28,468 nt of DNA from positions 1 through 28,468 of the IMG/VR virus record IMGVR_UViG_3300031578_000260; one strand, given 5' to 3'. Every line of letters starts with the position of its first letter. Within the stretch, counting starts at the first letter, position 1. The position numbers and the translations under genes were made by a program. The notes below the pieces were generated by a model. It searched no databases. It was given only the letters and a program-made list of their open reading frames with translations, and had not been told where the DNA came from. The stretch is from a virus. Shown here one piece after another: positions 3,659-28,468 of the stretch.

Positions 3659-4300
3659 ATGTCAAAATTTATCGATTTAACGGGACAAAAATTCGGGAGA
3701 CTGACTGTTATTGAGAGGGTTTCTAACAGCAAGCACAGTCGGTCCATGTGGTTATGTAAGTGTGATTGCGGAATAGAAAAGATTATTTTAGGTAATGATC
3801 TACATAGAAACCATACCAAAAGTTGTGGGTGTTTACGGAAAGAAACAACAAGACAACGATTTACAAAACATGGCCATTCTAAAAAGGGTAAAGTAACTAA
3901 AATTTATTCAATATGGTTGAGTATGATCCAGCGATGTACTAATCCGAAAAATAAAAATTATCACCACTATGGTGGTCGAGGAATCACGGTTTGTAAACGA
4001 TGGAGTAATTCATTTGAGAATTTTAATAAAGATATGGCCAAGGAGTGGAAGTTAAAACTTACGATCGAACGAAAAAATAATGATAAGGGTTATTGTAAGA
4101 ATAATTGTTATTGGGCCACCTGGAGTCAACAACAAAGAAACAAACGAAATAATCGTTTGATTTCATATCTCGGCAAATCTCAATGTATCGCCGCCTGGGC
4201 AGAAGAAATGGATATTCCAGATTATATTATTGATCAACGCATTAAGCGTGGTTGGGATATAGCGAAAGCCCTAGAAACGCCAGTAAGAAAAAAACATTAA
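3659..4300 (+). CDS. HNH-like putative homing endonuclease, YGGRGI/NCRWAT family (copy 1)
   Basis: 213 residues. The N-terminus (KFIDLTGQKFGRLTV) is followed by a zinc-finger-like set (C33, C35, C37, C56, C58). The central core has Y104-G-G-R-G-I and then a GYCKNNCYWAT segment (about 144-153), typical of a phage family often annotated as HNH or homing endonuclease. The C-terminus (CIAAWAEEMDI, RIKRGWDIAKALETP) resembles a small DNA-recognition helical module. Two intact relatives (15615, 17628) and a decayed one (25230) lie in this window. Its stop overlaps the RNase H start (TAATG), and it lies between two unrelated genes as a free-standing insertion. Nuclease activity is assigned by family recollection; I cannot point to proven catalytic residues. 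Confidence 0.75.
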   Translation: MSKFIDLTGQKFGRLTVIERVSNSKHSRSMWLCKCDCGIEKIILGNDLHRNHTKSCGCLRKETTRQRFTKHGHSKKGKVTKIYSIWLSMIQRCTNPKNKNYHHYGGRGITVCKRWSNSFENFNKDMAKEWKLKLTIERKNNDKGYCKNNCYWATWSQQQRNKRNNRLISYLGKSQCIAAWAEEMDIPDYIIDQRIKRGWDIAKALETPVRKKH

Positions 4301-9850: not shown

Positions 9851-10440
9851 GTCCAATAGAATATATCAAAGAAGGTATTCGTGAAGGCAACTGGGAAACT
9901 GTTTGTGAGGGGTACGAACGACTTACGGGTGAAGCTTTACAATTGCCAGGAACAACGACAGCATCAAATGATGCTGAGTGCGCACTTAGACAGATCGCCG
10001 ATATTGTATTGGGCTTGCCGAAAATTAAGTCTACTACAACATCTGTAGAAAAACCACCAAAATTAGAAAAGAAAAAATCGGGCAAACCAAAAGGAAGCAA
10101 AAATAGTAAAACTAAGAAAAAATCCATAGTTACCACTGATGGAGAAGACACTTCCATTTTGTTAAATGATAGTGACAGAACAACAGTCCAACGACAAGAA
10201 GGCGGTGTACGATTAATTACTAATGATCCTGATCCAAAAGAAGTAGAGAGAAACAAGAAGAGGGCTCTAAAAGCACGATCAAACAAACTGAAACTCGATA
10301 GACCCGTGGCTCGTAAATACGAAGCAATATGTAACGAGTGTGAAGGAACATTTGAGGCGGATCGCCCTAGTGGTGAGATGGGACAAAAATGTCCGAAGTG
10401 TCTTGGGGGACAGAAAAGTAGGTTCAATCATGGGAAATAA
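9847..10440 (+). CDS. Lys-rich linker protein with C-terminal zinc ribbon
   Basis: 197 residues, not recognised as a family. The N-terminal 60 residues look helical. Residues 60-100 are low-complexity, rich in Lys, Ser and Pro (for example KKKSGKPKGSKNSKTKKK), and probably disordered. The C-terminus is a four-cysteine zinc ribbon (C162-x2-C165 and C182-x2-C185). The architecture fits a nucleic-acid-binding accessory protein. AGGGAG precedes the start and its 3' end overlaps dnaB by 11 bases, so it is probably co-expressed with the helicase. A single-stranded-DNA-binding or helicase-loading role is possible but unproven. Confidence 0.65.
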   Translation: MSPIEYIKEGIREGNWETVCEGYERLTGEALQLPGTTTASNDAECALRQIADIVLGLPKIKSTTTSVEKPPKLEKKKSGKPKGSKNSKTKKKSIVTTDGEDTSILLNDSDRTTVQRQEGGVRLITNDPDPKEVERNKKRALKARSNKLKLDRPVARKYEAICNECEGTFEADRPSGEMGQKCPKCLGGQKSRFNHGK

Positions 10441-14682: not shown

Positions 14683-15613
14683 ATGTAGCGCTAGTTCAAT
14701 CGGATTATACAACCATTGTTCTTTCGCCTATTTCCTCCACTATATCTTGGGTCTAGAATCACGAGCAGGCAAAGCAGCGCTCCAGGGCAGTATTGTACAC
14801 CAGGCTCTAGAATGGATGGTCAAATTGCGCAAACGCGGCAAGACTAATGTCGATCCCATGTGGTTACTCAATAGGGCTTGGGACGAACACACAGCAGCAT
14901 CTCCCGAAATAGCCATAAGAAGAGTTACCACACGTATCGATAAAGAAACTGGTGGATTTAAGGAATGTGCGGATTTCAAAAAATGTCGAATAGCACTCGA
15001 AACAGTATTGGAGGATCAATTTTACAATCCGTACAATCTTAACGTTATAGATAGTGAACGATGGTTCGCGCTCGCAATGCCCGGAAAAGAATGGGAATGT
15101 GTCGATGAGGACGGAAAGACACACCAATTTGCATCACGGGGTTTTATAGACTTTACCCACGAACTCGACAAAGAAACATTAGAAATTGTAGACTGGAAAA
15201 CTGGTGCGAGAAAAAGTTTCTACACACAAGAATCAATTGATGAAGTAGTGCTGATGAAAGAAATACAGCCTAGACTTTATCATTTGGCAGCATATTTTTT
15301 GTATCCCAAGTATAAGAAATTTTTAATAACCTTTTATTATACAAATTCTGGTGGGCCAATTACGATTGCTTTGTCTCAAGATGACTTAGCTAAAACGATA
15401 GCTATTTTACATAGCTTCTTTACGACAGTTAAAAGGGATACATTAATTCGCAGAAACCGTCACTGGACTTGTAAAATGTGCGGTTTTAATAACAACGGAA
15501 TATGTTCGAGGGTGTGGAGCGATTTACACACAATGGGTGGCGATTATGTTGAAGACCGCTACGCTGGCCTGGATTGTGAAGGTCAGTTGGCTATTGGAAA
15601 ACCAGAGAAATAA
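14669..15613 (+). CDS. Cas4/RecB-like PD-(D/E)XK nuclease (copy B)
   Basis: 314 residues from ATG 14669; a GTG at 14660 in the same frame is an alternative. The start SASSIGLYNHCSFAYFL is the usual N-terminal motif of this nuclease group. Core residues: G-S-I-V-H44, D161 (RGFIDF), D175-W-K177 (EIVDWKTG) and Q200-P-R-L-Y. The C-terminal C268-x2-C271-x7-C279 with an early cysteine (C17) could hold an Fe-S cluster. It shares only family features with copy A (2687), so the two are diverged paralogues rather than a recent duplication. It overlaps the preceding gene by 14 bases and is followed after one base by endonuclease copy 2. Confidence 0.85.
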   Translation: MKIVRCSASSIGLYNHCSFAYFLHYILGLESRAGKAALQGSIVHQALEWMVKLRKRGKTNVDPMWLLNRAWDEHTAASPEIAIRRVTTRIDKETGGFKECADFKKCRIALETVLEDQFYNPYNLNVIDSERWFALAMPGKEWECVDEDGKTHQFASRGFIDFTHELDKETLEIVDWKTGARKSFYTQESIDEVVLMKEIQPRLYHLAAYFLYPKYKKFLITFYYTNSGGPITIALSQDDLAKTIAILHSFFTTVKRDTLIRRNRHWTCKMCGFNNNGICSRVWSDLHTMGGDYVEDRYAGLDCEGQLAIGKPEK

Positions 15614-15614
15614 A

Positions 15615-16265
15615 ATGCCAAAGTTCATTGATTTAATTGGGAAAAAATTTGGTAAACTTATTGTTATCAAATATGCTAATAAAAATCAATGGGGACAGAT
15701 AAAATGGCTATGTCAGTGTGATTGTGGCAAAGAAATTGTCGTTCTTGGTTATCATCTTAAAAGTGGTCATACTCAAAGCTGTGGGTGTTTCCAGAAAGAA
15801 ATGGTTGTACGACAATTAACTAAACATGGTCATAACACAAAAAATGGAACAACTGCAACTTATTTATCATGGCGAGGTATGATTCAAAGATGCACTGATC
15901 CTAATTTTAAGCAATATAAGGATTATGGCGGTCGAGGAATCACGGTTTGTCAACGATGGGAAAATTTTACAAATTTTCTTGAAGATATGGGAGAACGTCC
16001 ATCAAGACTTACTCTGGATAGAATTAAAAACGATAAAGGGTATTGTAAATCTAATTGTCGGTGGGCAACCAGAAAACAACAAGCCAGAAATAGACAAAAT
16101 AACCGTTTAATTACATATAACGGAAAAGCTCAATGTGTTGCAGCTTGGGCAGAGGAAACGGGGATACATAAGGGGACCATCTTAAGGCGTTTGAAACTTG
16201 GTTGGTCAACAGAAAAAGCATTAATAACTCCAGCAGGGAAACAAGGAAAGCAAAATAATGAATAA
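15615..16265 (+). CDS. HNH-like putative homing endonuclease (copy 2)
   Basis: 216 residues. Same layout as copy 1: KFIDLIGKKFGKL start, cysteines C33, C35, C37, C56 and C58, Y104-G-G-R-G-I, a full GYCKSNCRWAT core and a C-terminal recognition module (CVAAWAEETGI, LGWSTEKALITP). The region around GGRGITVC is almost identical to copy 1 at the DNA level, suggesting recent spread or gene conversion. The natural start is ATG 15615, one base after the nuclease stop; the frame is open further upstream but only inside the preceding gene. Its 3' end overlaps the polymerase N-piece start, and its last Lys codons double as an AAGGAAAG ribosome site for that gene. Confidence 0.78.
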   Translation: MPKFIDLIGKKFGKLIVIKYANKNQWGQIKWLCQCDCGKEIVVLGYHLKSGHTQSCGCFQKEMVVRQLTKHGHNTKNGTTATYLSWRGMIQRCTDPNFKQYKDYGGRGITVCQRWENFTNFLEDMGERPSRLTLDRIKNDKGYCKSNCRWATRKQQARNRQNNRLITYNGKAQCVAAWAEETGIHKGTILRRLKLGWSTEKALITPAGKQGKQNNE

Positions 16266-17628
16266 TCCAAAAACATATATTCCACTCCACCAGCATAGTT
16301 ACTTTTCACTTTTGGATGGTTTGTCGGCGCCGAAAGACATAGTTAAAAGATGTATAGAATTGGGTTTACCTGGATGCAGTATCACTGACCATGGAACCTT
16401 GGCTGGTATGAAAGCATTTTATGATGAATGTCAGAAAGCGAAAATCAAATGTATTGTTGGTTGTGAAATTTATCAGTGTGAACAACACGCAACTATCAAA
16501 AATAATGGCAACAATAAGAGAAATCATTTAATTATTTTAGCTCGAAACGATGCGGGAATAAAGGATTTAATGTCTCTTGTGAGTGAATCGAATAAGCCAG
16601 AACATTTTTATAGAAAACCTCGACTTAGCCTTGAACAAATCACGCCGTTTGCTAAACATGGTAATTTAATTTGCTTAAATGCCTGCATAGCCGGACAATT
16701 ACCGATGTCTTTATTCACTGATTTCAAAGCGGCTATCATGGCGGGTCGTAATGGAAACGCAGCGGGTTCGAGAGAATATCTCAAACCAGATTGGAAAGAT
16801 GTTGGCAAAGCTATCATTGCCGAGCATCTAGCCATATTTGGAAAAGGTAATTATTATCTTGAAATTCAACTCGCTGGAATGGATATGCAGGTAGTCGTAG
16901 CAGAATGTCTTCGTGAATTAAGTAAAGAAACTGGAATACCTGTTGTGCCGACGACCGATTCTCATTATTGTAGAAAAAATGACGCCGAGGACCAGAGACT
17001 TTTACTTTATGCTTCGCTTCACACAACTAAAGAGGCGCAAGATTATAAAATTTCTACCGGACAAGATGTTATGGACTTTTTTATATCAGATAATTATTAT
17101 ATACTTTCTTATGACGAGATGAGACAACACTTCACGGAGGAAGAACTTCAAACTACATTAGATATTGCAAATCGGATAGAATATTCAGGGTTGGGTCACA
17201 ACCCGTATTTACCGCTTTTCACAAATGACGAATCTACGAAACTCAAACTTAACTCAAATGAATATCTGAAATATCTCTGTATCGAAGGCGCAAAAACAAA
17301 GCTTACACACTTGACCCCTGAACAGAAAAGGATATATTGGGACAGACTACAGAGAGAACTTATTGTTATTATGGAAGCTAAATTGGCAGATTACTTCCTG
17401 ATTGTCTGGGACGCTTGCAAATTTGTAGATGAAAATCATGGTCCTAGAGGGAAGGGGCGTGGTTCTGGTGCTGGTTCTCTAATCAACTATCTCACGGGAA
17501 TTACCGGTATCGATCCAATCGAGTACGGACTATACTTCGAACGATTTTACAACAGTGGTAGAAACGTTCAAAAACATATATCTTTTGATGAATTTTCTTT
17601 CGATAAATTTATTCAGGACAATTATTAA
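16258..17628 (+). CDS. dnaE: DNA polymerase III alpha (DnaE-type), N-terminal piece: PHP domain and start of palm
   Basis: 456 residues. It opens with the PHP domain: H11-Q-H13, D44-H45, E70, H90, C143 and D234-S-H236 look like the complete metal-ligand set, so the PHP may be an active 3'-5' exonuclease rather than a relic. The palm begins with GRGSGAGSLINYL (about 400-412), followed by TGIDPIEYGLYFERFYNSGRN. After that the protein runs into a 20-residue tail unlike other DnaE and stops, just before the catalytic PDIDID motif that appears in the next polymerase piece. The stop overlaps the endonuclease start (TAATG). It must pair with the pieces at 18284 and 26979 to form an enzyme. Confidence 0.92.
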   Translation: MNNPKTYIPLHQHSYFSLLDGLSAPKDIVKRCIELGLPGCSITDHGTLAGMKAFYDECQKAKIKCIVGCEIYQCEQHATIKNNGNNKRNHLIILARNDAGIKDLMSLVSESNKPEHFYRKPRLSLEQITPFAKHGNLICLNACIAGQLPMSLFTDFKAAIMAGRNGNAAGSREYLKPDWKDVGKAIIAEHLAIFGKGNYYLEIQLAGMDMQVVVAECLRELSKETGIPVVPTTDSHYCRKNDAEDQRLLLYASLHTTKEAQDYKISTGQDVMDFFISDNYYILSYDEMRQHFTEEELQTTLDIANRIEYSGLGHNPYLPLFTNDESTKLKLNSNEYLKYLCIEGAKTKLTHLTPEQKRIYWDRLQRELIVIMEAKLADYFLIVWDACKFVDENHGPRGKGRGSGAGSLINYLTGITGIDPIEYGLYFERFYNSGRNVQKHISFDEFSFDKFIQDNY

Positions 17629-18287
17629 TGGAATATGCAAAACCAAAATTAATACAAATTCTTAAAAATGAATCAGATAATGGAAATATATGCGGAGAAT
17701 TTCAATGTTATTGTGGCAGAATTTTCAAAACTAGATTGTTATCAGTTAAAAGTGGCCATTGTAAAAGCTGCGGCTGTTTACAAAAACAATATGCGTCAAA
17801 AATTGGTAAATTAAACAAAACACACGGCCATACAATAAATGGGAAACACTCAAGAACACATCATATATGGATCGGAATGAGAAGGAGATGTAATAATCAT
17901 AATGATTCTGCTTATAAAGATTATGGAGGACGAGGTATCGCCGTATGTGAAAGATGGAACAATAAAAAAACTGGATATATAAATTTTTTGAATGACATTG
18001 GAGAAATTCCAGAAAGCAAAACTATTGATCGTATTGAGAACAATGGGAATTATTGTCCAGAAAACTACAAATTGTCAACCATGGCAGAGCAATCAAGAAA
18101 TAGAAGAACCAATCATTTATTAAAATATGATAACAAAGAATTATGTTTTGCGGAATGGGAGGAGATAACAGGAATAAAACAAGCGACGATACGATATAGA
18201 ATTAAAGTTGGTTGGTCTGTAAGGAATGCGTTAACAATTCCGGCAGATACGATGCATAATAAAAAAAGAAAAGGAGATCAACGATGA
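17628..18287 (+). CDS. HNH-like putative homing endonuclease (copy 3) splitting the polymerase gene
   Basis: 219 residues. It belongs to the same family (cysteines C27, C29, C45, C48 and C50; D98-Y-G-G-R-G-I; GIKQATIRYRI and KVGWSVRNALTIP at the C-terminus). It differs from copies 1 and 2 in lacking the KFIDLxGKKFG opening and in having NYKLST where they have the NCRWAT-type string, so its activity may be lost. It sits exactly between two polymerase pieces, overlapping both (TAATG at its start, ATGA at its end). This is the arrangement expected of a free-standing homing endonuclease that has broken an essential gene. The Lys/Arg-rich tail carries the AAGGAGA site that starts the next piece. 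Confidence 0.75.
   Translation: MEYAKPKLIQILKNESDNGNICGEFQCYCGRIFKTRLLSVKSGHCKSCGCLQKQYASKIGKLNKTHGHTINGKHSRTHHIWIGMRRRCNNHNDSAYKDYGGRGIAVCERWNNKKTGYINFLNDIGEIPESKTIDRIENNGNYCPENYKLSTMAEQSRNRRTNHLLKYDNKELCFAEWEEITGIKQATIRYRIKVGWSVRNALTIPADTMHNKKRKGDQR
18271..18277 (+). promoter_or_regulatory. Strong ribosome binding site for the polymerase middle piece
   Basis: AAGGAGA lies inside the last codons of endonuclease copy 3, six bases before ATG 18284. It explains how the catalytic polymerase piece can be translated as a separate polypeptide. Confidence 0.8.
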
Positions 18288-19222
18288 ATTTTCGTGAATT
18301 CATAAAAAATAAAATAAATAAAGAAAGATTTATACAAATTAAAGATAATAAATTCTTTACTTTAGAAGTTGATATATTAAAAGATATTAAAATACAAAAA
18401 TATTATCAGTACTTAATAGATAACGTAGATTTAGATAGAAATAATCCGAGCAATAGTTATGTAATGTGGATTGTTGAAAAGGTCAATAAGATATGTTTTG
18501 ATAAGCCCCCAATTATTAATCCTGGTCATATCAGCCTCCCAGATATAGACATAGACCTTTCAGTTGTCTTTCGTAGTAAGGTGATAGCATATCTCAAAGA
18601 GCGATGGGGCGAAGAATATGTTGCCCAGATGATAACATTCGGTCGGCTTCAAGGGAAAGCGGCTCTGAAAGAAGTATTTCGTGCTAATCCAGATACGGTG
18701 AGACATCTAATGAAGGTTAAGGCTCTGAAAGAAGGGAAAGATACGGATGATATTAGTATCACACCTCACGATTTATGCAATGATATTACACATCATATCC
18801 CAGAAGAAGCCACAATAACGGATGAATTGAGACAAGCGAGAGCAGAACAAGGGGATGATTACGGCATATTGCAGTGGGCTGTGCATAATATTGAATATGT
18901 TCAGGATGCCTATGAATGGTATAAACCACTATTTGATCAAGCGATACGTATTGAAGGAACCAAAAAGTCTCAGTCCAAACATGCTGCTGGAGTTGTAATT
19001 GCTGATAGACCGATAGCAGAATTAGTGCCATTAGCCTATGATACCAAGAGCAAAAATCGCGTTGTTGGCGTAGAGATGGGCCATGCCGAGGCAATGGGGT
19101 GTGTCAAGTTTGATTTCCTCGGTGTTGTAGCACTAGATAAGATGTGGAAAGCACAGGATTTGATTAACGGATGTGATGACGAAGTAGCTCTAGAGGAAGG
19201 ACTTATCAATGAAACAGACTGA
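18284..19222 (+). CDS. DNA polymerase III alpha, catalytic middle piece (palm)
   Basis: 312 residues. After an AT-rich, Lys/Asn/Ile-rich first 75 residues with no clear DnaE match, it shows GHISLPDIDIDL with D89 and D91 aligned to the first two catalytic aspartates. It continues with FGRLQGKAALKEVFR, then SKHAAGVVIADRPIAELVPL, and KFD277FLG carrying the third catalytic aspartate. So all three polymerase aspartates lie on this fragment. It ends soon after (ALDKMWKAQDLIN) with an acidic tail, just where intact DnaE would enter the fingers domain; the fingers are encoded at 26979. It overlaps the HAD gene by 14 bases. Confidence 0.9.
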   Translation: MNFREFIKNKINKERFIQIKDNKFFTLEVDILKDIKIQKYYQYLIDNVDLDRNNPSNSYVMWIVEKVNKICFDKPPIINPGHISLPDIDIDLSVVFRSKVIAYLKERWGEEYVAQMITFGRLQGKAALKEVFRANPDTVRHLMKVKALKEGKDTDDISITPHDLCNDITHHIPEEATITDELRQARAEQGDDYGILQWAVHNIEYVQDAYEWYKPLFDQAIRIEGTKKSQSKHAAGVVIADRPIAELVPLAYDTKSKNRVVGVEMGHAEAMGCVKFDFLGVVALDKMWKAQDLINGCDDEVALEEGLINETD

Positions 19223-19583
19223 TCACGCCGCACATATCAAGACGGTTTTTTGTGATATCGATGGATGTATATTAAAACATCATGGCAATATGACAGCTAT
19301 ACTTACTAATCCGTGTAAATTATTGCCTGGTGTACGAGAGGCTTTCAAACGATGGGGTTATAAAGGATATACGATTGTTTTAACAACGGGACGACCAGAG
19401 AGTCTTCGAAGCTTTACAAATCAACAATTACACGATACTGGTTTGTTTTTCCATAGTTTAATCATGGGACTGCCCAAAGGACAACGAGTAGTTATTAATG
19501 ACATGAAAGCCAAAACAATTGCCGAAACCGCCGCTTGCGTAAATCTACCTCGAAATAAGGGAATGGAACATGTTGACATCTAA
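19209..19583 (+). CDS. Small HAD-superfamily phosphatase
   Basis: 124 residues. HAD motif I is F-C-D16-I-D18-G, motif II is the TTGRPES string (Thr as the phosphate ligand), and the late INDMKAK region supplies the acidic motif. The short length, without a large cap, resembles phosphatases found in sugar-nucleotide and capsule clusters. It would remove phosphate from a small sugar phosphate. It starts inside the polymerase piece with an AGGAAGGA site about 8 bases upstream and overlaps the aldolase-like gene at its 3' end. The natural partner is the GatZ-like protein next to it. Confidence 0.83.
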   Translation: MKQTDHAAHIKTVFCDIDGCILKHHGNMTAILTNPCKLLPGVREAFKRWGYKGYTIVLTTGRPESLRSFTNQQLHDTGLFFHSLIMGLPKGQRVVINDMKAKTIAETAACVNLPRNKGMEHVDI

Positions 19584-20604
19584 TCTGGCCTGCGGACCAA
19601 TGAGTAAAGAAGTTATTGAAGCAGTTTTCCGCCATTCCAGTAGGTTCGGGAAACAGTTGATGCTCATATGTTCTCGTAATCAGGTGGATATTGATAGTGG
19701 ATATGTATTTACTACATCACAGTATATTGATTATTTGGCAAGCATGAAACATAAATACCCATATGCAAATGTTGCTATTTGCCGTGACCATTGTGGTCCT
19801 GGTTTCGGAAGCCCCAGCAATTCTCTGGAATCCGTTCAGGATACTATCCGTTGTGATTTGGAACATGGCTTCGATCTTATTCATATCGACTTATGCAATG
19901 CCACAACAAAATGGGATACGGATACATTGGCATTTGGACGAGCCATGTCGCATAAAGAAAAGATACAAAATACTATAGCATTAATGCAATTTGCCCTAGA
20001 CACAAGGCCAGATATAAGATTTGAAATCGGAACAGATGTCAATAGGGGGAAGGCCGAAGACGATGTCGATAGAATCGTAGAAGATGCCCGGACATGTCAA
20101 CAAATATCACACCCTGCTTTCTATGTCGTGCAGACAGGCAGTCTTGTGCGAGAAGCAAGTAACGTAGGATCGTTTGATATTGACAAAGTTCGTGTCATAC
20201 ACAAGGCGTTAAGCAAATTGGGTATCAAAACGAAAGAACATAACGCCGATTATCTAACCACCGAACAAATAGCTTATCGAAAAGGTATTGTAGGTGCTGT
20301 AAATATTGCTCCGCAACTAGGGGTCGTACAAACTAGTCATGTACTGTCTAAGGCTTTAATGTATGGTATAGATATTAAGCATTTTATAGATGAAGTTAAT
20401 AACGGCGGAAATTGGGAGAAATGGCTTTATGCATCCGTAGGGATGCGGCGAATACCATGTGCGTGGATAGCTGGCCACTATCACTTTAACGGGCAGGCAT
20501 ATCAACAAATTGTTGCAAAGCTTTCGAAAAAGATCAATATTCGTGAAAGTATTATTAGTGAAATAACAAGTGTAATCGAACATTACTTGTTTTCATTGGA
20601 GTAG
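19570..20604 (+). CDS. GatZ/KbaZ-like tagatose-bisphosphate aldolase family protein
   Basis: 344 residues. The order NQVD (37-40), R72-D-H-C-G-P-G78, a strand with HIDL, F-E-I-G-T-D-V-N-R-G, and KEHNADYLT matches the GatZ/KbaZ TIM-barrel family: SxNQV, GGDHLGP, IGTEV and AHSTDY in the bacterial proteins. In enteric bacteria GatZ supports the class II aldolase GatY, which makes or cleaves tagatose 1,6-bisphosphate; stand-alone relatives occur in surface-sugar loci and may be catalytic themselves. The start overlaps the HAD gene by 14 bases. It is shorter than E. coli GatZ (about 420 residues), mostly at the C-terminus. The real substrate is unknown. Confidence 0.8.
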   Translation: MLTSNLACGPMSKEVIEAVFRHSSRFGKQLMLICSRNQVDIDSGYVFTTSQYIDYLASMKHKYPYANVAICRDHCGPGFGSPSNSLESVQDTIRCDLEHGFDLIHIDLCNATTKWDTDTLAFGRAMSHKEKIQNTIALMQFALDTRPDIRFEIGTDVNRGKAEDDVDRIVEDARTCQQISHPAFYVVQTGSLVREASNVGSFDIDKVRVIHKALSKLGIKTKEHNADYLTTEQIAYRKGIVGAVNIAPQLGVVQTSHVLSKALMYGIDIKHFIDEVNNGGNWEKWLYASVGMRRIPCAWIAGHYHFNGQAYQQIVAKLSKKINIRESIISEITSVIEHYLFSLE

Positions 20605-20609
20605 AGACT

Positions 20610-20957
20610 ATGGAAGCTATTGGAAAACCGTGGGGTAAAGAAGAAATTCTTGCTAACACAGAAAGATATGTTGTCAAAAAAATATATATGTACAAAGGGC
20701 ATAGATGTAGTCTACAATATCATGAGTACAAAACAGAAACCATCTATGTATTAAGTGGTGCATTGTTAATTACCAAAAATTTTATCGGAGCTAAATCGAC
20801 TTGGGAAGATATTGTTTTGTATCCTGGTGATTTTTGCACTATTTTACCAGGAGAAGTACATCGCATGGAAGGTAAAGAAGACGCAATTTACTTAGAAGCA
20901 TCTACGACCGAATTGGACGACGTAGTAAGAGTTGAGGACGATTATGGGAGAGAATAA
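20610..20957 (+). CDS. Cupin similar to the C-terminal domain of type II phosphomannose isomerase
   Basis: 115 residues. KPWGKEE at the start, G30-H-R-C-S-L-Q36-Y-H38, E43 in the KTETIYVLSG strand and H84 in PGEVHRM are the cupin metal ligands and motifs of mannose-6-phosphate isomerase (ManC/WbpW C-terminal domain). Here the domain stands alone, directly before a nucleotidyltransferase of a different type. It would isomerise a ketose phosphate to an aldose phosphate, in line with the aldolase upstream, although stand-alone cupins can also be epimerases. It overlaps the next start by 14 bases. Confidence 0.82.
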   Translation: MEAIGKPWGKEEILANTERYVVKKIYMYKGHRCSLQYHEYKTETIYVLSGALLITKNFIGAKSTWEDIVLYPGDFCTILPGEVHRMEGKEDAIYLEASTTELDDVVRVEDDYGRE

Positions 20958-22509
20958 AACATACAAAGTACTAATTCCAACCGCTGGTGTTGGCTCCAGA
21001 TTAGGCAATCATTGCGATCATGTCAATAAGACATTGGTCCCAGTAGCCAATCGTCCAATTATTTCGTACATTATCGAGAAATTTCCGCCAAACATAGAAT
21101 TGATTATTGATCTTGGACACAAAGGGGAATTGGTAAAAGAATTTTTAACATTGGCTTATCCAGATCGTAAGTTCACATTCATATGGGCAAATAGAAATGG
21201 TCTTACGGCAGATTTATGTGATTACCAAGATATGCTACAATGTCCGTTTATATTTTTTACCAACGATGCGATAGTAACAGAAGATATTCCACCGCCAGAT
21301 CATGATTGGATAGGACATGCCAATGTCCGGGCTGGTCAAGATTATCGTTCTGTTGTCGTAGATTCATGGGATAACACAGTAGTAAAGGATTTAGGCGAAA
21401 AGGGTGTTCACACAGAAGCAAAAGCTTATATTGGAATTTGTGGTATCCACGATTACAAAACCTTCTGGGAAGCTATGGACGAAGCTTTGCAAAAAGGTAC
21501 CACCAATCAAGGAGAATCATTTGCCTTAGCTTCGATGATAAAAGAGCAGCCAATTAAAGGGGTTGAATTTACATGGTACGATACTGGTACAGTAGAATCG
21601 CTTGCGCACGCAAATAATATATTCCACCGAGAGGATGCCCCTAATATTCTTCCAAAAGAACAGGAACACATTTGGTTTTGCAATGATAGAGTCATCAAGT
21701 TCTCAACAGACCAAGAATTCATTGCACAAAGAGTTGAACGAGCTATCGCATTAAGTGGGCATGTTCCGATAATCGAAGGAAGTACTCCGAATATGTATTG
21801 TTACAAAATGATCGATGGTCAAGTTTTATCTAGAACTATAACCACATCATTATTTAGGAAGTTCCTTATTTGGATGGAAGAAATGTGGGGAGATAGACAA
21901 TTATTGACAGCCGATGTTCAAGATGTATATCTTCGATTTTACAAAGACAAGACTATTCAACGAGTATGTGATTACTTTGAACGTTTTGGATATCACGATT
22001 CAGCACAATGTATCAATGGTGTAGATGTTCCGCCTATATTTGAGTTACTGGACAAGATAGATTGGACGTGGATATCTACAGGAATTCCAGTCCGCTTTCA
22101 CGGCGACTTACATTTCGAGAATATTATAGATATGGATGGATATTTCTGTTTATTAGACTGGAGACAAAATTTTGGTGGGTTAAGTGATTACGGTGATATC
22201 TATTACGATTTAGCCAAACTGTGGCATGGACTAATTGTATCACACGGCATTATAAACAAAGGTTTGTATGAGATTGATATAAATGGTGACACAGTTAACT
22301 TTGATTTACTGAGAAGACAAACACTCATTGATTGTGAAACATGGCTACAACAATATTTGGTACGTAACCATTACGACTACCACAAAGTAAAATTGTTGAC
22401 AGCACTTATATATCTCAATATCGCAGCGTTACATCATCAACCATATGCAGAAATGCTATTTCACCTTGGAAAATTAATGCTAAATGAATTGGAGGAATAT
22501 AATGAATAA
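20944..22509 (+). CDS. Fusion: sugar nucleotidyltransferase plus choline/aminoglycoside-type kinase
   Basis: 521 residues from ATG 20944 (GAGG six bases upstream). The N-terminal half (about 6-235) is a nucleotidyltransferase: I-P-T-A-G-V-G-S-R-L-G, K29 in NKTLVPVANRPI, and a TNDA metal site near 107. The C-terminal half (about 270-520) is an APH/choline-kinase fold: H386-G-D-L-H-F-E-N-I is the catalytic loop and LLDWRQNFGG the metal-binding DFG equivalent, with DYGDIYYDLAKL after it. The pair would phosphorylate a sugar or alcohol and then couple it to a nucleotide, as separate enzymes do in the AmgK/MurU and LicA/LicC pathways. One chain carrying both steps is uncommon. It ends inside the next start. 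Confidence 0.85.
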   Translation: MGENKTYKVLIPTAGVGSRLGNHCDHVNKTLVPVANRPIISYIIEKFPPNIELIIDLGHKGELVKEFLTLAYPDRKFTFIWANRNGLTADLCDYQDMLQCPFIFFTNDAIVTEDIPPPDHDWIGHANVRAGQDYRSVVVDSWDNTVVKDLGEKGVHTEAKAYIGICGIHDYKTFWEAMDEALQKGTTNQGESFALASMIKEQPIKGVEFTWYDTGTVESLAHANNIFHREDAPNILPKEQEHIWFCNDRVIKFSTDQEFIAQRVERAIALSGHVPIIEGSTPNMYCYKMIDGQVLSRTITTSLFRKFLIWMEEMWGDRQLLTADVQDVYLRFYKDKTIQRVCDYFERFGYHDSAQCINGVDVPPIFELLDKIDWTWISTGIPVRFHGDLHFENIIDMDGYFCLLDWRQNFGGLSDYGDIYYDLAKLWHGLIVSHGIINKGLYEIDINGDTVNFDLLRRQTLIDCETWLQQYLVRNHYDYHKVKLLTALIYLNIAALHHQPYAEMLFHLGKLMLNELEEYNE

Positions 22510-23065
22510 ATCTAGTTTGCAGCATGGGCTTACACTAATCAATCCTAAATATAAACATGTTTTAGAATTTGGAGTATGTCATGGAGGAACCATTCGGACA
22601 ATTAGACAAACCCTAGACGAATCTTTTCAAGTATTTGGTTTTGATTCATTTGTAGGATTACCAGAAGCTTGGGTGGACAAAAACGGAAAAGTAGTTGTAC
22701 CGCCAGAATATTTCTCGACTAATGGAGTGATTCCTGATGTTAAGGATGTCAAATTCTATGCTGGATGGTTCACAGATACGCTATCAGATTACCTTCAGAT
22801 TGCCGAACCCATTGCGCTATTACACATAGATTCCGATCTATATAGTTCTGCTAAAGAAGTTTTAGAAGCACTTGATGACTATATAGTACCAGGTACAATT
22901 ATTGTATTTGATGAATGGTTTTATAGACACGATGAGAAATATGACGATCACGAACAAAGGGCGTTTAACGAATGGGTGTTAACGTTTGATCGTAAGTACG
23001 AAGTAGTCCATTTTGTAGACAAAACTACTTCCGGTGAAGAGCGTAAGATTGTTCGCACACTATAG
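22502..23065 (+). CDS. TylF/MycF-like SAM-dependent O-methyltransferase
   Basis: 187 residues from ATG 22502, with GGAGG at 22491-22495. SAM-binding motif I is E22-F-G-V-C-H-G-G-T, followed by VFGFDSFVGLPE (D48), GWFTDTL, and LLHIDSDLYSS as the metal-binding DxD-type motif of the TylF/macrocin O-methyltransferase family. VPGTIIVFDE is the following strand. These enzymes methylate hydroxyls on sugars or natural products. Its setting among sugar genes suggests it decorates the sugar made upstream. A small mammalian-type COMT activity is less likely given the VGLPE motif. Confidence 0.87.
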   Translation: MNKSSLQHGLTLINPKYKHVLEFGVCHGGTIRTIRQTLDESFQVFGFDSFVGLPEAWVDKNGKVVVPPEYFSTNGVIPDVKDVKFYAGWFTDTLSDYLQIAEPIALLHIDSDLYSSAKEVLEALDDYIVPGTIIVFDEWFYRHDEKYDDHEQRAFNEWVLTFDRKYEVVHFVDKTTSGEERKIVRTL

Positions 23066-23094
23066 GGCAAGGTACAGATAAAGGAAAACACAAT

Positions 23095-23814
23095 ATGGGA
23101 AAAGAAGGCATGATGCAGAATAATTGGGAGCGTAATCCATCCGATGTCGTTGGTCTTAAATATATACCGACAATAAAACCAGAATATTTAGACGACGAAC
23201 AAAGAATGTTCGTTAGAGTTAAAGATGGATTTGGTCTACCTATGTGTATTCATAATAATTTACCTGGGAATACCCCGCTAGTCCATAGTGGACCTTCCAT
23301 TAGACAGTCGCACGTAGATATGCTAAGTAATGCCATATCCTCTGATACTAAAACTATATTGGAAATTGGAATAAACGTGTATAAAAAACCATTACTATCA
23401 ACGACAAGAGCAATTTTAGAAAACAAAGAAGATGATTGTGTATATCTCGGAATTGATGTTAATGATAAATCAAGTATAAATGACGTAAGCAAAAATATAC
23501 ATACGATGAAGATTGATTCCAGTTTACGTAAAATCATCAGAGAAAAAATGCTGGAACTTGGAATGAAAACTATTGACCTATTAATGATAGATGGAGATCA
23601 TTCTATAACACTAATGGTCAATGATTGGTGTTTTACTGAATTCTTATCGCCGCGAGCTAATGTAATCATACATGATACCAATGTACATATAGGCCCAAGA
23701 TCAGTTTTTGATGCAATAGATGAAACATTATTCGATAAACAACTAATAGGTTCAGAAATAAAATCAGGCAAGTTCTTAGACTATGGCATGGGCATAGCTA
23801 GGAGATTATTTTGA
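23095..23814 (+). CDS. Probable class I methyltransferase-like protein
   Basis: 239 residues. The SAM-fold signals are ILE90IG, LGID121VN, and IDLLMID166GDHS followed by VIIHDTN (193-196). A 70-residue N-terminal extension rich in Pro and charged residues has no match I know. The D-G-D-H string resembles the metal-binding site of the methyltransf_24/TylF-type group. The glycine-rich loop of motif I is weak (IGINVYKKP), so SAM binding is less certain than in the neighbours. The start ATG 23095 has AAGGA at about 23081-23085; another ATG lies five codons later. It is next to TylF-like and glycosyltransferase genes. Confidence 0.65.
   Translation: MGKEGMMQNNWERNPSDVVGLKYIPTIKPEYLDDEQRMFVRVKDGFGLPMCIHNNLPGNTPLVHSGPSIRQSHVDMLSNAISSDTKTILEIGINVYKKPLLSTTRAILENKEDDCVYLGIDVNDKSSINDVSKNIHTMKIDSSLRKIIREKMLELGMKTIDLLMIDGDHSITLMVNDWCFTEFLSPRANVIIHDTNVHIGPRSVFDAIDETLFDKQLIGSEIKSGKFLDYGMGIARRLF
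23800..23804 (+). promoter_or_regulatory. Ribosome binding site supporting a TTG start
   Basis: AGGAG is six bases before TTG 23811, which overlaps the preceding TGA by two bases. With no ATG near the protein's first strand (MKIALCLNG), TTG is the best-supported start of the following gene. Confidence 0.75.
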
Positions 23815-24653
23815 AAATCGCACTATGCTTAAATGGTATGGCACTACATCCGGGCAAAAAAGTTGTCGGCGGCCAGATGTGGGATGGCAAGACAGGAAAG
23901 AGGACGCCTGTTGAATGGGAGAAGGGTTTAGAGCATTATCAGAAGCATATGTTTGCCCACAACGATATAGATGTCTTTATGCACACCCCAAGTGTTGATG
24001 CAGAACAAGATTTGAGAAATGCATATAAACCAAAAGCCGCGATATTCGAACCAGACCCAAAATTCAACATTAATGGAGCAAAGGTTGATAAAAATTACCC
24101 TGATGGTATTACGTCGAAAACACAGATAACCATTGCAAGATGGTATAGTATTCAGAGATGTATGCAACTCAAAAAAAAATATGAAGAACAACACGGTTTC
24201 AAATATGATATGGTTATGATTGGTAGATTCGATGTTGCTTGGATGACCGATGTACATTTTAATCAATTCGATCCAAACCATTTTTACGCTTCGAACTGGT
24301 GTGTTATGAGAATGTCAAATGGGCAAGGAATCCGACATGAAGATTGGTTTCTTCATGGATGGAATAAAAAAGAAAATAAGGAACTTCAACATATTCATAT
24401 AGGATACCCGCACACACCTAATTACCCGGCTTTGGCTGACTATTTTTTCTTTGGAGGCTCTGAAATCATGGATAAGTTTGGGAACTTGTATGATAATGTT
24501 AGCAAATTCCTGAAAGAAGGAGTTCCATCAAATCATGAATTTGCGATAAAACAATTGAAAATTACAGGATTATTGCCCAAATTAAAGTTCGCATTCCACA
24601 TCCATAATGACGTTTTCCTGGCTCGTTTTGTATATTTTGATTGGAGAAAATAA
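23811..24653 (+). CDS. Putative glycosyltransferase-like protein (TTG start)
   Basis: 280 residues. It begins with a Rossmann-like strand (MKIALCLNGMA). The central part reads QHGFKYDMVMIGRFDVAW (about residues 127-143) with an RFD motif like the metal-binding acidic motif seen in several surface-sugar transferases, preceded by a helix of SIQRCMQLKKKYEE. IHIGYP and ADYFFFGGSEIMDKF (about 218-232) match the pattern of DUF-type glycosyltransferases in capsule and phage loci. I do not know a named homologue, so glycosyltransferase is a family-level guess. It starts at TTG with the preceding AGGAG site. The extension of the 3' end into the FkbM frame is not supported. Confidence 0.6.
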   Translation: MKIALCLNGMALHPGKKVVGGQMWDGKTGKRTPVEWEKGLEHYQKHMFAHNDIDVFMHTPSVDAEQDLRNAYKPKAAIFEPDPKFNINGAKVDKNYPDGITSKTQITIARWYSIQRCMQLKKKYEEQHGFKYDMVMIGRFDVAWMTDVHFNQFDPNHFYASNWCVMRMSNGQGIRHEDWFLHGWNKKENKELQHIHIGYPHTPNYPALADYFFFGGSEIMDKFGNLYDNVSKFLKEGVPSNHEFAIKQLKITGLLPKLKFAFHIHNDVFLARFVYFDWRK

Positions 24654-24654
24654 T

Positions 24655-25230
24655 ATGAATAGAATATTTTTAGACGTAGGAAGTCATCAGGGCCAAACAA
24701 TAGAATTGTTGTTACAGCCCAGATTCAAAGTCGACCACATTATTGGGTTCGATCCATCTCCGTTGTGTCTCGACATTCTAAATAGAAAATTCAACAATAA
24801 CACAAGGGTAAAAATTGTTAAAGCTGGATTGTGGTCGGAGACGTGCGAGATGTTGCTTCATAATGAGGGTTCACAAGGGGGAACAGTCCATGAAGATTAT
24901 GAAACCACTTGCAACCCCGAGAAACGAGTGACGAGATGTCAATTCATAAAGGCATCCGATTGGTTTCGTGATAATATATCATCTGATGATGAAATATTTT
25001 TGAAAATTAATGCTGAAGGTAGCGAGTGTGAAATTGTTTTAGACCTTATTAATTCTGGCGAATATGATAAAGTTAAGGCAACGCTAATAGATTTTGATGT
25101 CCGCAAGAGTCCATCTCAGAAACACAAAGAAGATGAATTACGAGAACGGATGGAGGCAGAAAACATAAGTAACATTCATACGTACATGGGTGACGCGCGA
25201 CACATGTTATTGTATTCGGTGTTAAGATAA
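24655..25230 (+). CDS. FkbM-family SAM-dependent methyltransferase
   Basis: 191 residues from ATG 24655, with GGAG 8 bases upstream. SAM motif I is F-L-D7-V-G-S-H-Q-G-Q-T, followed by IIGFDPSP and KAGLWSET. F-L-K-I-N-A-E-G-S-E and LIDFDVRK are the later core strands typical of FkbM methyltransferases. These methylate hydroxyl groups on sugars and polyketides. It is the third methyltransferase-like gene of the island. The open frame continues to 24607 upstream but that part overlaps the glycosyltransferase gene and gives a hydrophobic segment with no ribosome site. The stop codon overlaps the ATG of the decayed endonuclease (TAATG). Confidence 0.85.
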   Translation: MNRIFLDVGSHQGQTIELLLQPRFKVDHIIGFDPSPLCLDILNRKFNNNTRVKIVKAGLWSETCEMLLHNEGSQGGTVHEDYETTCNPEKRVTRCQFIKASDWFRDNISSDDEIFLKINAEGSECEIVLDLINSGEYDKVKATLIDFDVRKSPSQKHKEDELRERMEAENISNIHTYMGDARHMLLYSVLR

Positions 25231-25360
25231 TGGGCAAATTCATAGACCTGTCTGGGAAGAAGTTCGGACGACTAATTGTAAATGTGGCTGGTCATTGACA
25301 AAAGCATTGACCACACCTGCTCGCAAATACAAGAAAAGGAAAAATAATGGGAAAACCTAA
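25230..25360 (+). pseudogene. Remnant of a fourth HNH-like homing endonuclease with a large internal deletion
   Basis: The first 17 codons read MGKFIDLSGKKFGRLIV, closely matching the start of copies 1 and 2. The frame then hits TGA at 25296. In another frame, 25280-25360 encodes KCGWSLTKALTTPARKYKK and then stops at 25358, matching the C-terminal KLGWSTEKALITP region of copy 2. About 500 bases between the two ends are missing. The original stop would have overlapped the next gene's first codons, as in the intact copies. The surviving tail still contains AAAGGA before ATG 25347, which probably serves the downstream gene. Confidence 0.85.
25335..25340 (+). promoter_or_regulatory. Ribosome binding site left in the endonuclease remnant
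   Basis: AAAGGA is six bases before ATG 25347 and lies in the Lys-rich C-terminal tail of the decayed endonuclease. It is the only good ribosome site for the downstream glycosyltransferase. Confidence 0.65.
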
Positions 25361-26096
25361 AATTTGGCTCTATTGGGATAATATTCCACCAGCAGTAGAA
25401 CCCCCTGCTTATATCAAGTTATGTCTAGAAACAATAGAAAGACACTGTCAGGAAGATTTTAACATCCACATGGTGACAACTGATAATGTAAAACAGTTTT
25501 TACCGAATATTTCTGAAACCTTTTTTCAAATTGCTCAAATCAATAATAAGTCCAATTATCTGCGGTATATGTTACTGAGAGAATATGGGGGGATATGGCT
25601 CGATTCTGATCTCATCCTATTTAGAAGTCTGAAACCAACGCTTGATCTATTAAAGGATGGAATTGATCTTATAGCGACCGCTTCCCCAACTCTTAAGTAT
25701 GGCGAACCAGAGTGTGGATTTTTGCTTTCGACGCAGCGCGGTGGAGTTATTTCAAAAGCCGTCAATCTAATTGAGCACGCCTTGAGCCTTCATGAACCGG
25801 GCCACATTTTCCGTTGGGGCGGACTTGGACCTTCTATAGTGCGTCAAGCTGTATCTGGATTGTCTTATCATCACCTGGATAACAAATTGATACAGCCTAT
25901 TGCCTCATGGGAGGCTTTCAGATTCGACGGAAAAGAACAGATCGACCGCGTCTGTATTGAGAACCCTTTTGGCGTCATGCTGTTTCATCAAATGTTCAAG
26001 CAGGGTAATTCCCAATCATTAAGAATGAACCGTGGGCAACTTCTTGAAGCTCCGACTCTTTTGGGGCAAATGTTTAGAAGGGCAATGGGTGAATAA
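25347..26096 (+). CDS. Glycosyltransferase with DxD motif, GT32/capsular type
   Basis: 249 residues. PKIWLYWDNIPPAVEPPAY at the start, a conserved NYLRYMLLREYGGIWLDSD segment (DSD at about residue 86) and a late WGGLGPSIV string match the sugar-transferase DXD family used in capsule and lipopolysaccharide synthesis (GT32, Caps_synth/Gly_transf_sug). The DSD binds the metal and nucleotide of the NDP-sugar donor. It would transfer a hexose, perhaps the activated sugar of this island, to an unknown acceptor. The start lies in the remnant of the endonuclease; the end overlaps the next ATG (TAATG). Confidence 0.85.
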   Translation: MGKPKIWLYWDNIPPAVEPPAYIKLCLETIERHCQEDFNIHMVTTDNVKQFLPNISETFFQIAQINNKSNYLRYMLLREYGGIWLDSDLILFRSLKPTLDLLKDGIDLIATASPTLKYGEPECGFLLSTQRGGVISKAVNLIEHALSLHEPGHIFRWGGLGPSIVRQAVSGLSYHHLDNKLIQPIASWEAFRFDGKEQIDRVCIENPFGVMLFHQMFKQGNSQSLRMNRGQLLEAPTLLGQMFRRAMGE

Positions 26097-26938
26097 TGAT
26101 GTGCGATGAGCATAAAATGCTGTTTATGACTGTAGCCAATAGGTCATATCAAAAATATGTCCCATGGTTTTTGTATTTCTTGAATAGAGCATATCCAGAA
26201 GCACATAAGTTAGTGATGCTGGACGAAACCATAACAGACGATGTTCGGGCCATGCTCGCTTTGTTGTCTGGCAACTTCGAGGTAAGAGAATTGTCTTTTG
26301 CCGAATATACACCAGAATACGGGTCAGCCGATGCCAATACTATAAAGTGCCTAAGATGGTTAGTGTATGAACCAGCATTTGAGCAATACGAATGCATGTC
26401 TATCGGCGATGTAGACATGGCTATTTATCGTGAGTTTCCATCTTATATGGACCAACATCTGGCTCATTGTCGACGATTAGGAATCCCATACAGCAATTTT
26501 ATCCGACCGCCCGTTGCTGGTCCTAGACGAATGGGTGGTATAAATGTAATCCAACCGAAAGAGTGGTTTGCGGCGATGCATCCAATGATCGATAAGTATC
26601 GTTCACGTCTTGCCCACGGTGATATTCGTTTACCGCCACTTGGCTTTAATGAACAACTATTATTGAAAATGATAATAGAATCAGATCTAGGTAAACCACC
26701 GTCAGATTTATCCGAGACTTATTGGCCCGCCCTAGTGACATCTAATCATCACGGGACACATATCCGATTGGCTGAACATGGTGGGATAATAGGACTTCGG
26801 GGAGCAAGGGGTTATCGGACACATAAACCCGAGGTTCTGGCTGCTGTTGAAACACCGCTTTTCAAACGGTTATCGGAAATGTCCCCGGATATCGGCTATA
26901 TATTGAAAACCGTTGCTAAGGCATACGAAAGTTTCTAA
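26096..26938 (+). CDS. Putative glycosyltransferase with GDVDM motif
   Basis: 280 residues. After NRSYQKYVPWFLYFLNRAYP it shows a CLRWLVYEPAF helix and I-G-D-V-D-M-A-I (about 102-109), an Asp-x-Asp metal site like those of GT8-type enzymes. Late motifs GFNEQLLLKMI and TSNHHGTHIRL resemble the closing part of the same fold. I cannot name the donor or acceptor. A second ATG follows one codon after the first; either may be used. It is the last gene of the island before the polymerase C-piece, separated by 40 bases that include the second dispersed repeat. Confidence 0.7.
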   Translation: MMCDEHKMLFMTVANRSYQKYVPWFLYFLNRAYPEAHKLVMLDETITDDVRAMLALLSGNFEVRELSFAEYTPEYGSADANTIKCLRWLVYEPAFEQYECMSIGDVDMAIYREFPSYMDQHLAHCRRLGIPYSNFIRPPVAGPRRMGGINVIQPKEWFAAMHPMIDKYRSRLAHGDIRLPPLGFNEQLLLKMIIESDLGKPPSDLSETYWPALVTSNHHGTHIRLAEHGGIIGLRGARGYRTHKPEVLAAVETPLFKRLSEMSPDIGYILKTVAKAYESF

Positions 26939-26942
26939 ATAT

Positions 26943-26973
26943 ATGGAACAAAAAATTGATTTCGAGGTATAAT
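26943..26973 (+). repeat. 31-base dispersed repeat, copy 2 (upstream of polymerase C-piece)
   Basis: It can encode MEQKIDFEV-stop, almost the same nine residues as the end of the membrane protein at 5265-5294, and includes CGAGG and TATAAT. It matches copy 1 at 26 of 31 positions, and the next ATG (26979) is again five bases after the TATAAT. The bases just upstream (26925-26942) do not resemble the upstream region of copy 1, so the shared segment is short. Confidence 0.6.
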
Positions 26974-26978
26974 GGGGT

Positions 26979-28468
26979 ATGATAGAGTTCAGCAATTGCG
27001 ATTGTAAAGTCACTCCTGGTGAATTCAGTATTAACGATATTTCACTGGATTGCCCTGCTACCTGGAAATTAATCTCAGGCGGTCATACTGTCGGTATTTT
27101 TCAGTTAGAGAAAAATCTGGGTCAAGATTGGGCCAAAAAAGTACGACCTAGCAATATTGAAGAATTGGCTGCTTTGGTAAGTATTTTGAGACCGGGAAGT
27201 CTTGATTCTGGAATGTCTCAGGATTATGTGGATATCAAATTCGGACGCAAAAAACATTCGTATCTACATCCGTTATTAAAGCCCATATTGGAACCGACTT
27301 ATGGTTGTCTAATTTTTCAAGAACAAGCCTTGCGGATTGCTACCGATCTTGCTGGATTCGATCCTATTGAAGCAGATATGCTAAGGTCTGCAATCGGTAA
27401 AAAATTAGCAGAGAAAATGGCATCTCTTAAAGATAAATTTATAGCAGGATGTCAAACCCATAGCCAAATTGGCAGGGGAATCGCAGAAGAAATATTCGGT
27501 TGGATTGAGAAGTGTCAAAGATATTCATTCAACTTAGCCCATGCAATGGGTTATGCTCTAGGAATAAGCTATCCAACAGCATGGTTAAAATGTCATTTCC
27601 CACAAGAATTTTTTACTAGCTATTTGACTTATTCCCAATATAAAGGTGATCCAAAAGAAGAAATTTATAAATTAGTACAGGACGCCCGATTATTTGGAGT
27701 GGATATTTTACCTCCCGATATTCGAAGGGGCAACATTCATTTTCAAATGACCGAAGAACCCCAGAAAGGCGTAGCATTCGGTCTGGCGCACATAAGGGGC
27801 GTAGGAGCCTCGGCTATCCAAAAGATCGTCACAGCGACCACCACAGGGGCCACAGTAGGGTCTCTAGAGACTTGGGCTCACTTCTTGGCGGCGGTTCCAG
27901 GTTTCCATAGGAATGTGGGAATAGCTTTGATAAAATCTGGTGCATGTGATTGTTACGACATGAGTCGTAATGAAATGGTACGAGAACTGGAAATTATACT
28001 TGGAACTACTGCCAGAGATTTGAACGGGAATAAGGTCGAGATTAAAGGGTTAACAAATAAAGAGAGAATTCATTTTTTCGATCAACTTCATCAGGGGGCG
28101 ATGACTACTCAAGAAATTCTGTTACAAATGGCTCAACCCCCAGGTAATAAGACCAAGACGATTGGTCAGATGATCAAAAAAGAACTAGTACAAACTGCGG
28201 TAGAATATCTAGATCAGGCCGAATCTGCATTTGATAGCATTTCGGATGGGGACAGTAAATTCGTATATACATCACCCAAGGAAAAAGAAGATTGGCTTGA
28301 TACCATAAAAAATCGAACCAAAAAAGATATTGAGGCCCTACTGATACAAAATGGCTACAAGGATATTGCGGTTAAGTCTCCGTGTGCAAGTGACGCTAGA
28401 CGAAAAGTAGTAGAGGCGAAGGCGAATTTGTTAGAAGGCACTATCAATGATACTAATACGGTGAATGC
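26979..28468 (+). CDS. DNA polymerase III alpha, C-terminal piece (fingers onward), 3' partial
   Basis: 496 codons to the window edge with no stop. After about 30 residues it matches the DnaE fingers: GHTVGIFQLE (35-44), NIEELAALVSILRPGSLDSG, EPTYGCLIFQEQ (105-116), EADMLRSAIGKK (131-142), YSFNLAHAMGYALGISYPTAWLK, ILPPDI and GLAHIRGVGASAI (helix-hairpin-helix). This continues where the middle piece stops, so the three parts together would form one alpha subunit. ATG 26979 has GAGG about 11 bases upstream. The first 15 residues (MIEFSNCDCKVTPGE) have no DnaE counterpart I know. The end of the gene and any beta-clamp motif lie outside the window. Confidence 0.92.
   Translation, partial: MIEFSNCDCKVTPGEFSINDISLDCPATWKLISGGHTVGIFQLEKNLGQDWAKKVRPSNIEELAALVSILRPGSLDSGMSQDYVDIKFGRKKHSYLHPLLKPILEPTYGCLIFQEQALRIATDLAGFDPIEADMLRSAIGKKLAEKMASLKDKFIAGCQTHSQIGRGIAEEIFGWIEKCQRYSFNLAHAMGYALGISYPTAWLKCHFPQEFFTSYLTYSQYKGDPKEEIYKLVQDARLFGVDILPPDIRRGNIHFQMTEEPQKGVAFGLAHIRGVGASAIQKIVTATTTGATVGSLETWAHFLAAVPGFHRNVGIALIKSGACDCYDMSRNEMVRELEIILGTTARDLNGNKVEIKGLTNKERIHFFDQLHQGAMTTQEILLQMAQPPGNKTKTIGQMIKKELVQTAVEYLDQAESAFDSISDGDSKFVYTSPKEKEDWLDTIKNRTKKDIEALLIQNGYKDIAVKSPCASDARRKVVEAKANLLEGTINDTNTVN

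Follow-up and report, generated by a model that had tools for sequence, protein, structure and literature searches.

In cyanobacteria, the replicative polymerase DnaE is encoded by two genes, and their products, DnaE-n and DnaE-c, are rejoined by the protein trans-splicing of a split intein. Split polymerases are also known from phages. According to PMC2988022, the replicative polymerase of Aeromonas phages 25 and 44RR is divided over two genes, gp43A and gp43B (cited there from Petrov et al. 2010), with a homing endonuclease gene in phage 25, and the 43A and 43B proteins of phage 25 co-purify and polymerise. In phage Aeh1, the ribonucleotide reductase is split into NrdA-a and NrdA-b by mobE, and the split NrdA is fully active (PMC2988022). 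A minimal split Pol III alpha has been described beside a PolB replicase in group 2.2 jumbo phages (PMC7824862). The present study concerns the virus record IMGVR_UViG_3300031578_000260, a genome fragment of 28,468 bases that is referred to as a whole as the window. It carries a single C-family (DnaE) polymerase spread over three open reading frames (ORFs), here named A, B, and C, which tile Taq Pol III alpha essentially without gaps. This is probably the replicative Pol III alpha of a large uncultured phage lineage, which has an old split into an N and a C part and, in the window, also a young cut by an HNH gene within the N part.

The polymerase of the window shares features with each of these systems and differs from all of them. 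gp43A/B belongs to family B and is in two pieces, whereas the window has a family C enzyme in three pieces, one break of which has no endonuclease. As in Aeh1, where the pieces of NrdA form an active enzyme, an essential phage enzyme has been split by a homing endonuclease, but here this enzyme is a polymerase, and the flanks of the split are shared with a distant phage. As in the group 2.2 jumbo phages, the core of a C-family polymerase is divided between free-standing phage proteins; their version is without the other Pol III domains, while the window has the full domain set, including PHP and HHH, its old cut lies between palm and fingers, and no PolB was found in ten relatives. DnaE is distributed over more than one gene as in cyanobacteria, but no intein halves were found at the breaks. 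A preliminary description, made from the letters of the window, held that a DnaE broken twice, with no intein and with a gene island in one break, was not known to be described. However, gp43A/B, the group 2.2 split, and the polymerases of Bacillus phage KLEB27-3 and Rossellomorea phage phiT1 are precedents too close for so general a statement, which is upheld for the particular variant: in the open-access literature searched, no account was found of a full-domain lineage-wide palm|fingers split or of a three-piece C-family polymerase. Split phage polymerases as a kind are already known, and what is new is the present variant.

The ORFs A and B each have their own start and stop, and C has its own start (Table 1). 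In Pfam comparisons, A matches PHP (E=1.3e-37) and positions 1-99 of DNA_pol3_alpha, B matches positions 94-260 of the latter profile (E=6.5e-33), and C matches DNA_pol3_finger (E=1.8e-45) and HHH_6 (E=1.9e-12). Membership of the C family follows from PHP, palm with aspartate motifs, fingers, and HHH in DnaE order, the C-terminal part being visible in relatives only; in most of these, C has a length of about 615-650 aa, while the copy in the window is cut off by the contig end. The PHP metal-ligand, GS, PDIDID, KFDFLG, GIFQLE, and IGKK motifs are all present in the window, and Foldseek searches with the structure models confirmed the DnaE fold and nothing beyond it. Profiles built from relatives align to residues 4-639 of Taq alpha for the N part and 642-966 for the C part, which leaves almost no residues unaccounted for at break 2, i.e., the break between B and C. 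Compared with close relatives, all three pieces have pN values of 0.09-0.17 and pS values of 0.74-0.86 (pN and pS are given instead of omega for the polymerase core, where synonymous sites are saturated), and by this measure amino-acid change is shown to be selected against in A, B, and C alike. The preliminary description had thus recognised the three ORFs as one polymerase with the right coordinates and content, and its further statements, namely that the DnaE order is kept with little missing, that each piece has its own start, and that the catalytic aspartates are isolated on B, agree with the profile matches and gene structure given here.

Table 1. Features of the split polymerase locus (window coordinates unless a relative is named).
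Feature	Location	Strand	Details
Piece A	16258..17628	+	PHP and first part of palm (GS motif); 456 aa; C-terminus ...SFDKFIQDNY
Imported left flank	17554..17625	+	Last 24 codons of A
HNH homing endonuclease gene	17628..18287	+	Makes break 1; phrog_374, E=1.8e-49
Shine-Dalgarno AAAAGGAG and spacer	18265..18283	+	Ahead of piece B, within the end of the HNH gene
Piece B	18284..19222	+	Catalytic palm with PDIDID and KFDFLG aspartate motifs; 312 aa
Imported right flank	18284..18523	+	First 80 codons of B; AT-rich (about 25% GC, GC profile)
Cargo island	19209..26938	+	Ten sugar/methyl-transfer ORFs
Conserved element GAGGTATAAT / AGGTATAAT	26961..26978	+	A few bases before piece C; in most relatives examined
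Piece C	26979..28468	+	Cys-rich start (CDC...LDC), fingers, HHH; 496 aa; open at contig end
alphaN-epsilon-alphaC gene order (wider group)	L121 9003-9882, L161 9018-9915, L150 8195-9416 and others

The two breaks differ in age. The viral set comprised the loci from a fingers search (the best 80 of 270 matches) together with those found with the N part. Both pieces are present at 95 viral loci (58 distinct N pieces), and every one of these has palm and fingers on separate genes, none being fused, whereas 77 of 80 loci in a bacterial/archaeal genome collection are fused and the remaining three resemble phage contigs binned in metagenome-assembled genomes (MAGs). In a tree of palm and fingers, the 44 sampled split members, from the lineage of the window and a wider group, form one clade (SH-aLRT 100). 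Because of this distribution and the single clade, break 2 (19222/26979) is read as an ancient lineage-wide split. The N part ends at a median of 27 residues after FDxLG, and the homology of C begins at residue 15. In the members of the wider group that were read, an ORF of 62-82 aa and a DnaQ-like exonuclease gene (RNase_T) lie between the halves, with a gap of about 860 nt in most; this gene order points to joint production and assembly of alpha-N, epsilon, and alpha-C. In the clade of the window, no DnaQ was found at the junction or elsewhere, apart from one weak match in the contig of L105. A Cys-rich start (CxC plus the Cys in the LDC motif) is common to 64 of 75 C pieces, which may suggest that it stabilises the exposed N-terminus of C, possibly with a metal. 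Upstream of C, the AGGTATAAT element may act either as a ribosome site or as a -10 box from which a near-leaderless mRNA would arise; the window has another copy of it at 5287. The MAGs in which three members of the phage group (L180, L181, and L182) are binned are called Flavobacteriales and Lokiarchaeota, which are weak host hints or contamination.

Two cultured phages bear on the origin of break 2. In KLEB27-3 (OM634661), DnaE is encoded by gp166 and gp164 with an HNH gene, gp165 (phrog_374), in between; unlike in the window, this DnaE is broken a little way into the fingers, following GLFQIE, and there is no island. In phiT1 (PV767480), DnaE is cut at the palm|fingers boundary into gp20 and gp18, and, again unlike in the window, just a 49-aa ORF lies between the halves. 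The tree places both phages outside the split clade, with a single clade not being rejected (p-AU 0.49), and the different cut point of KLEB27-3 argues for a separate event. In eight other cultured phages examined, DnaE is in one gene. It is conceivable, if rather doubtful, that break 2 itself goes back to a homing endonuclease that has since disappeared, the gap then being filled by the DnaQ gene or an island, which concerns the origin of the break and not its function. The splitting of KLEB27-3 DnaE near the same point by an HNH of the same PHROG would fit this course of events, as would the HNH genes at the island edge in a few relatives. Across the wider group, however, DnaQ occupies the junction without any trace of an endonuclease, and plain gene fission or the insertion of DnaQ explains break 2 equally well. 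At break 2 of the window no homing endonuclease was found, and HNH genes occur within the island in a few relatives only.

Break 2 of the window holds a ten-ORF island, as had been noted in the preliminary description. Its ORFs encode HAD phosphatase-like, GatZ/KbaZ-like, cupin/mannose-6-P isomerase-like, and APH-like proteins, a TylF-type methyltransferase, a second methyltransferase (phrog_8156), a Caps_synth glycosyltransferase, and three proteins without a clear family. The clade of the window mostly has an island of 5-12 kb at the junction where the wider group mostly has the DnaQ gene. The HAD-GatZ-cupin-APH-TylF set occurs in the same order in several relatives, and other cargo is present at the same place in others. 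The island is exchangeable cargo at an old junction and no part of the polymerase. That break 2 was caused by a recent insertion of the island was rejected, the split being the older of the two. The preliminary description is not supported where it treats the breaks as one phenomenon peculiar to this phage: break 1 alone is a recent homing fracture, break 2 is an ancient trait of the lineage, and the island is swappable cargo. The alternative islands of 3300024265_000059, 3300037247_000655, and 3300007900_000584 have glycosyltransferase-like ORFs together with an HldE-like kinase ('SRISPEAPVPVV'), with families assigned by eye.

Break 1, between A and B, holds a homing endonuclease gene of phrog_374, as predicted earlier. 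This HNH gene shares bases with both neighbours, namely, with the stop of A (TAATG) at its start and with the start of B (ATGA) at its end. In relatives, a single ORF of about 760-830 aa corresponds to A and B, and it is longer if an in-frame intein-like insert is present. The break lies in a lineage-specific palm insertion of about 117 aa between 'FERFYN.SRN' and 'HISLPDID', and 44 contigs found by means of the N-part alignment were compared. The insertion is unbroken in 35, missing in eight, and broken in one (L077); among the 35, contig 3300009788_002519 is frameshifted at another place in the gene, unlike the very similar 3300024265_000059. The DNY at the end of A and the MNF at the start of B both match a single DNF in relatives (residues 452-454 of the L006 protein). 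AlphaFold predicts a helical bundle for most of the insertion (pLDDT about 90 for residues 461-530), the break site being in the first helix. Because 35 of the 44 contigs keep the same insertion unbroken, break 1 is considered young and, by its position, the work of the HNH homing endonuclease, which lies inside a gene that is intact in these 35 contigs and fractured in the window and L077.

In the distant phage L077, break 1 is found at the same place, with the same junctions and the same HNH, the two HNH proteins being 66% identical. The sequences next to the HNH gene resemble those of L077 as well. The left flank is 21-33% identical to 22 relatives and 64% to L077, and the right flank is mostly 8-31% identical to the 22 relatives and 50-71% to L077 (66% over 94 aa when aligned directly), whereas the remainder of the polymerase mostly shares 60-88% identity with the close clade of the window and 46-70% with L077. 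Synonymous divergence from L077 follows the same pattern, with pS values of 0.38-0.67 for the flanks and HNH gene and 0.76-0.86 for the core; omega is 0.23 for the right flank and 0.15 for the HNH gene. Since flanks and HNH resemble L077 while the core resembles the close clade, and since their synonymous divergence is lower, the comparison indicates that the HNH gene homed in and co-converted its flanking sequence. This transfer with co-converted flanks is seen in two contigs, and when more copies of the module were sought with the HNH and the split-specific flank as queries, L077 alone was matched. Upstream of the HNH gene of L077, a GIY-YIG-like frame is present in another reading frame (2059-2506), which might reflect the decay of a two-domain endonuclease or a sequencing error. 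The window has three paralogous HNH genes within its 28 kb (3659-4300, 15537-16265, and 17628-18287; 40-54% identical), and paralogues are found at other places in relatives, some of them at the start of the island.

Taken together, the polymerase has for a long time consisted of two proteins, namely, N (PHP and palm) and C (fingers, HHH, and the C-terminal part), with the cut in the palm/fingers linker. In the window, the HNH gene then entered the first helix of the insertion, bringing along flanks of about 24 aa upstream and 80 aa downstream that are related to those of L077. A, B, and C are presumed to be translated separately and to assemble non-covalently into one active polymerase, the likeliest outcome of those considered and also the one proposed in the preliminary description. 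The interface at break 1 would be formed by the imported flanks, as the jointly transferred halves of a single helical domain, and the interface at break 2 by the palm/fingers contact and the Cys-rich start of C. The Shine-Dalgarno sequence before B is strong and, along with the TAATG and ATGA overlaps, is taken as support for separate translation. In each of ten relatives of 113-181 kb, palm and fingers are encoded by one gene apiece, and polymerases of family A or B were not found; the split Pol III alpha is thus probably the only replicase of the lineage.

If break 1 were instead a fresh wound, the polymerase would be dead and another one (its own, that of the host, or that of a co-infecting phage) would replicate the genome. 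Homing endonucleases do disrupt genes, and a second polymerase could sit elsewhere, as the contig has just 28 kb. Against this stand the lack of any other family A, B, or C polymerase in the ten larger relatives, the open frames of A, B, and C with all motifs kept and pN far below pS, the start/stop overlaps with a good ribosome site ahead of B, and the occurrence of the same split form in a distant phage, with a similarly constrained right flank. A dead polymerase is therefore regarded as improbable.

Even less credible is the rejoining of the pieces into one or two polypeptides by a split intein, an RNA intron, or ribosome bypassing. Such rejoining has a parallel in cyanobacterial DnaE, and inteins are common in the lineage, both in dnaB of the window and in the polymerase pieces of relatives. 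However, no intein halves or extra domains were found at any piece end, as judged from the alignments of A and B to relatives, which run right up to the break, and from the start of homology in C; the absence of an intein at either break is in line with the preliminary description. The HNH ORF fills the gap at break 1 and overlaps both neighbours, and no Rfam match to a self-splicing intron or other RNA element was obtained at the breaks, an undescribed intron type being possible. Ribosome bypassing in T4 gene 60 covers ~50 nt, a length far exceeded by the 660 nt at break 1. The intein of the window is of the LAGLIDADG type and lies in a DnaB-type helicase gene (10340-13135, about residues 273-674); it is missing in most relatives. 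The in-frame intein-like insertions in the polymerase of relatives (L007, L014, L012, L024, L043, and others) are located at residue 69 of A and at residues 76, ~135-141, and 186/187 of C.

An assembly join at the island or the HNH gene might be suspected in a single metagenomic contig, but this is extremely unlikely and was rejected, because both breaks recur in other contigs. Break 2 with cargo in the gap is found in independent contigs of up to 181 kb and recurs across the 95 viral loci, break 1 reappears in L077 together with its HNH and flanks, and GC content and reading frames are continuous in the window. The arrangement described earlier is real, and neither chance nor misassembly accounts for it.

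Several observations weigh against a polymerase that works as three assembled pieces. The window is a 28-kb fragment, and another polymerase elsewhere in the phage is possible. Break 1 is known from two contigs, one of just 4 kb. The AlphaFold models have low confidence (mean pLDDT 67 and 57), so the interfaces are deduced, assembly itself is argued from sequence and precedent, and the CxC...C motif is missing or incomplete in 11 of the 75 C pieces. The functional three-piece polymerase nevertheless remains the preferred explanation and is considered probable. A more far-reaching proposal is put forward tentatively, with the odds somewhat against it, namely, that an obligately non-covalent, two-subunit Pol III alpha of palm and fingers is the only replicase of a large phage lineage, and that the HNH gene carries matched interface halves. 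If true, the joining of palm and fingers would be an assembly step, and co-conversion of the flanks would swap an uninterrupted domain for a self-assembling split one, sparing the host of the mobile element the damage of insertion.

Replicative polymerases are usually treated as single chains, and annotation pipelines may otherwise label polymerases such as these as 'partial' or 'truncated' DnaE. The lineage-wide palm|fingers split shows a cut next to the active site to be compatible with the C-family fold, which has retained it. To this old cut, the window adds a recent one, for which unbroken relatives are available for comparison. This opens to experiment the question of how an essential enzyme can withstand a homing endonuclease, and it provides a natural test of the number of pieces into which a replicative polymerase can be cut without losing its function.

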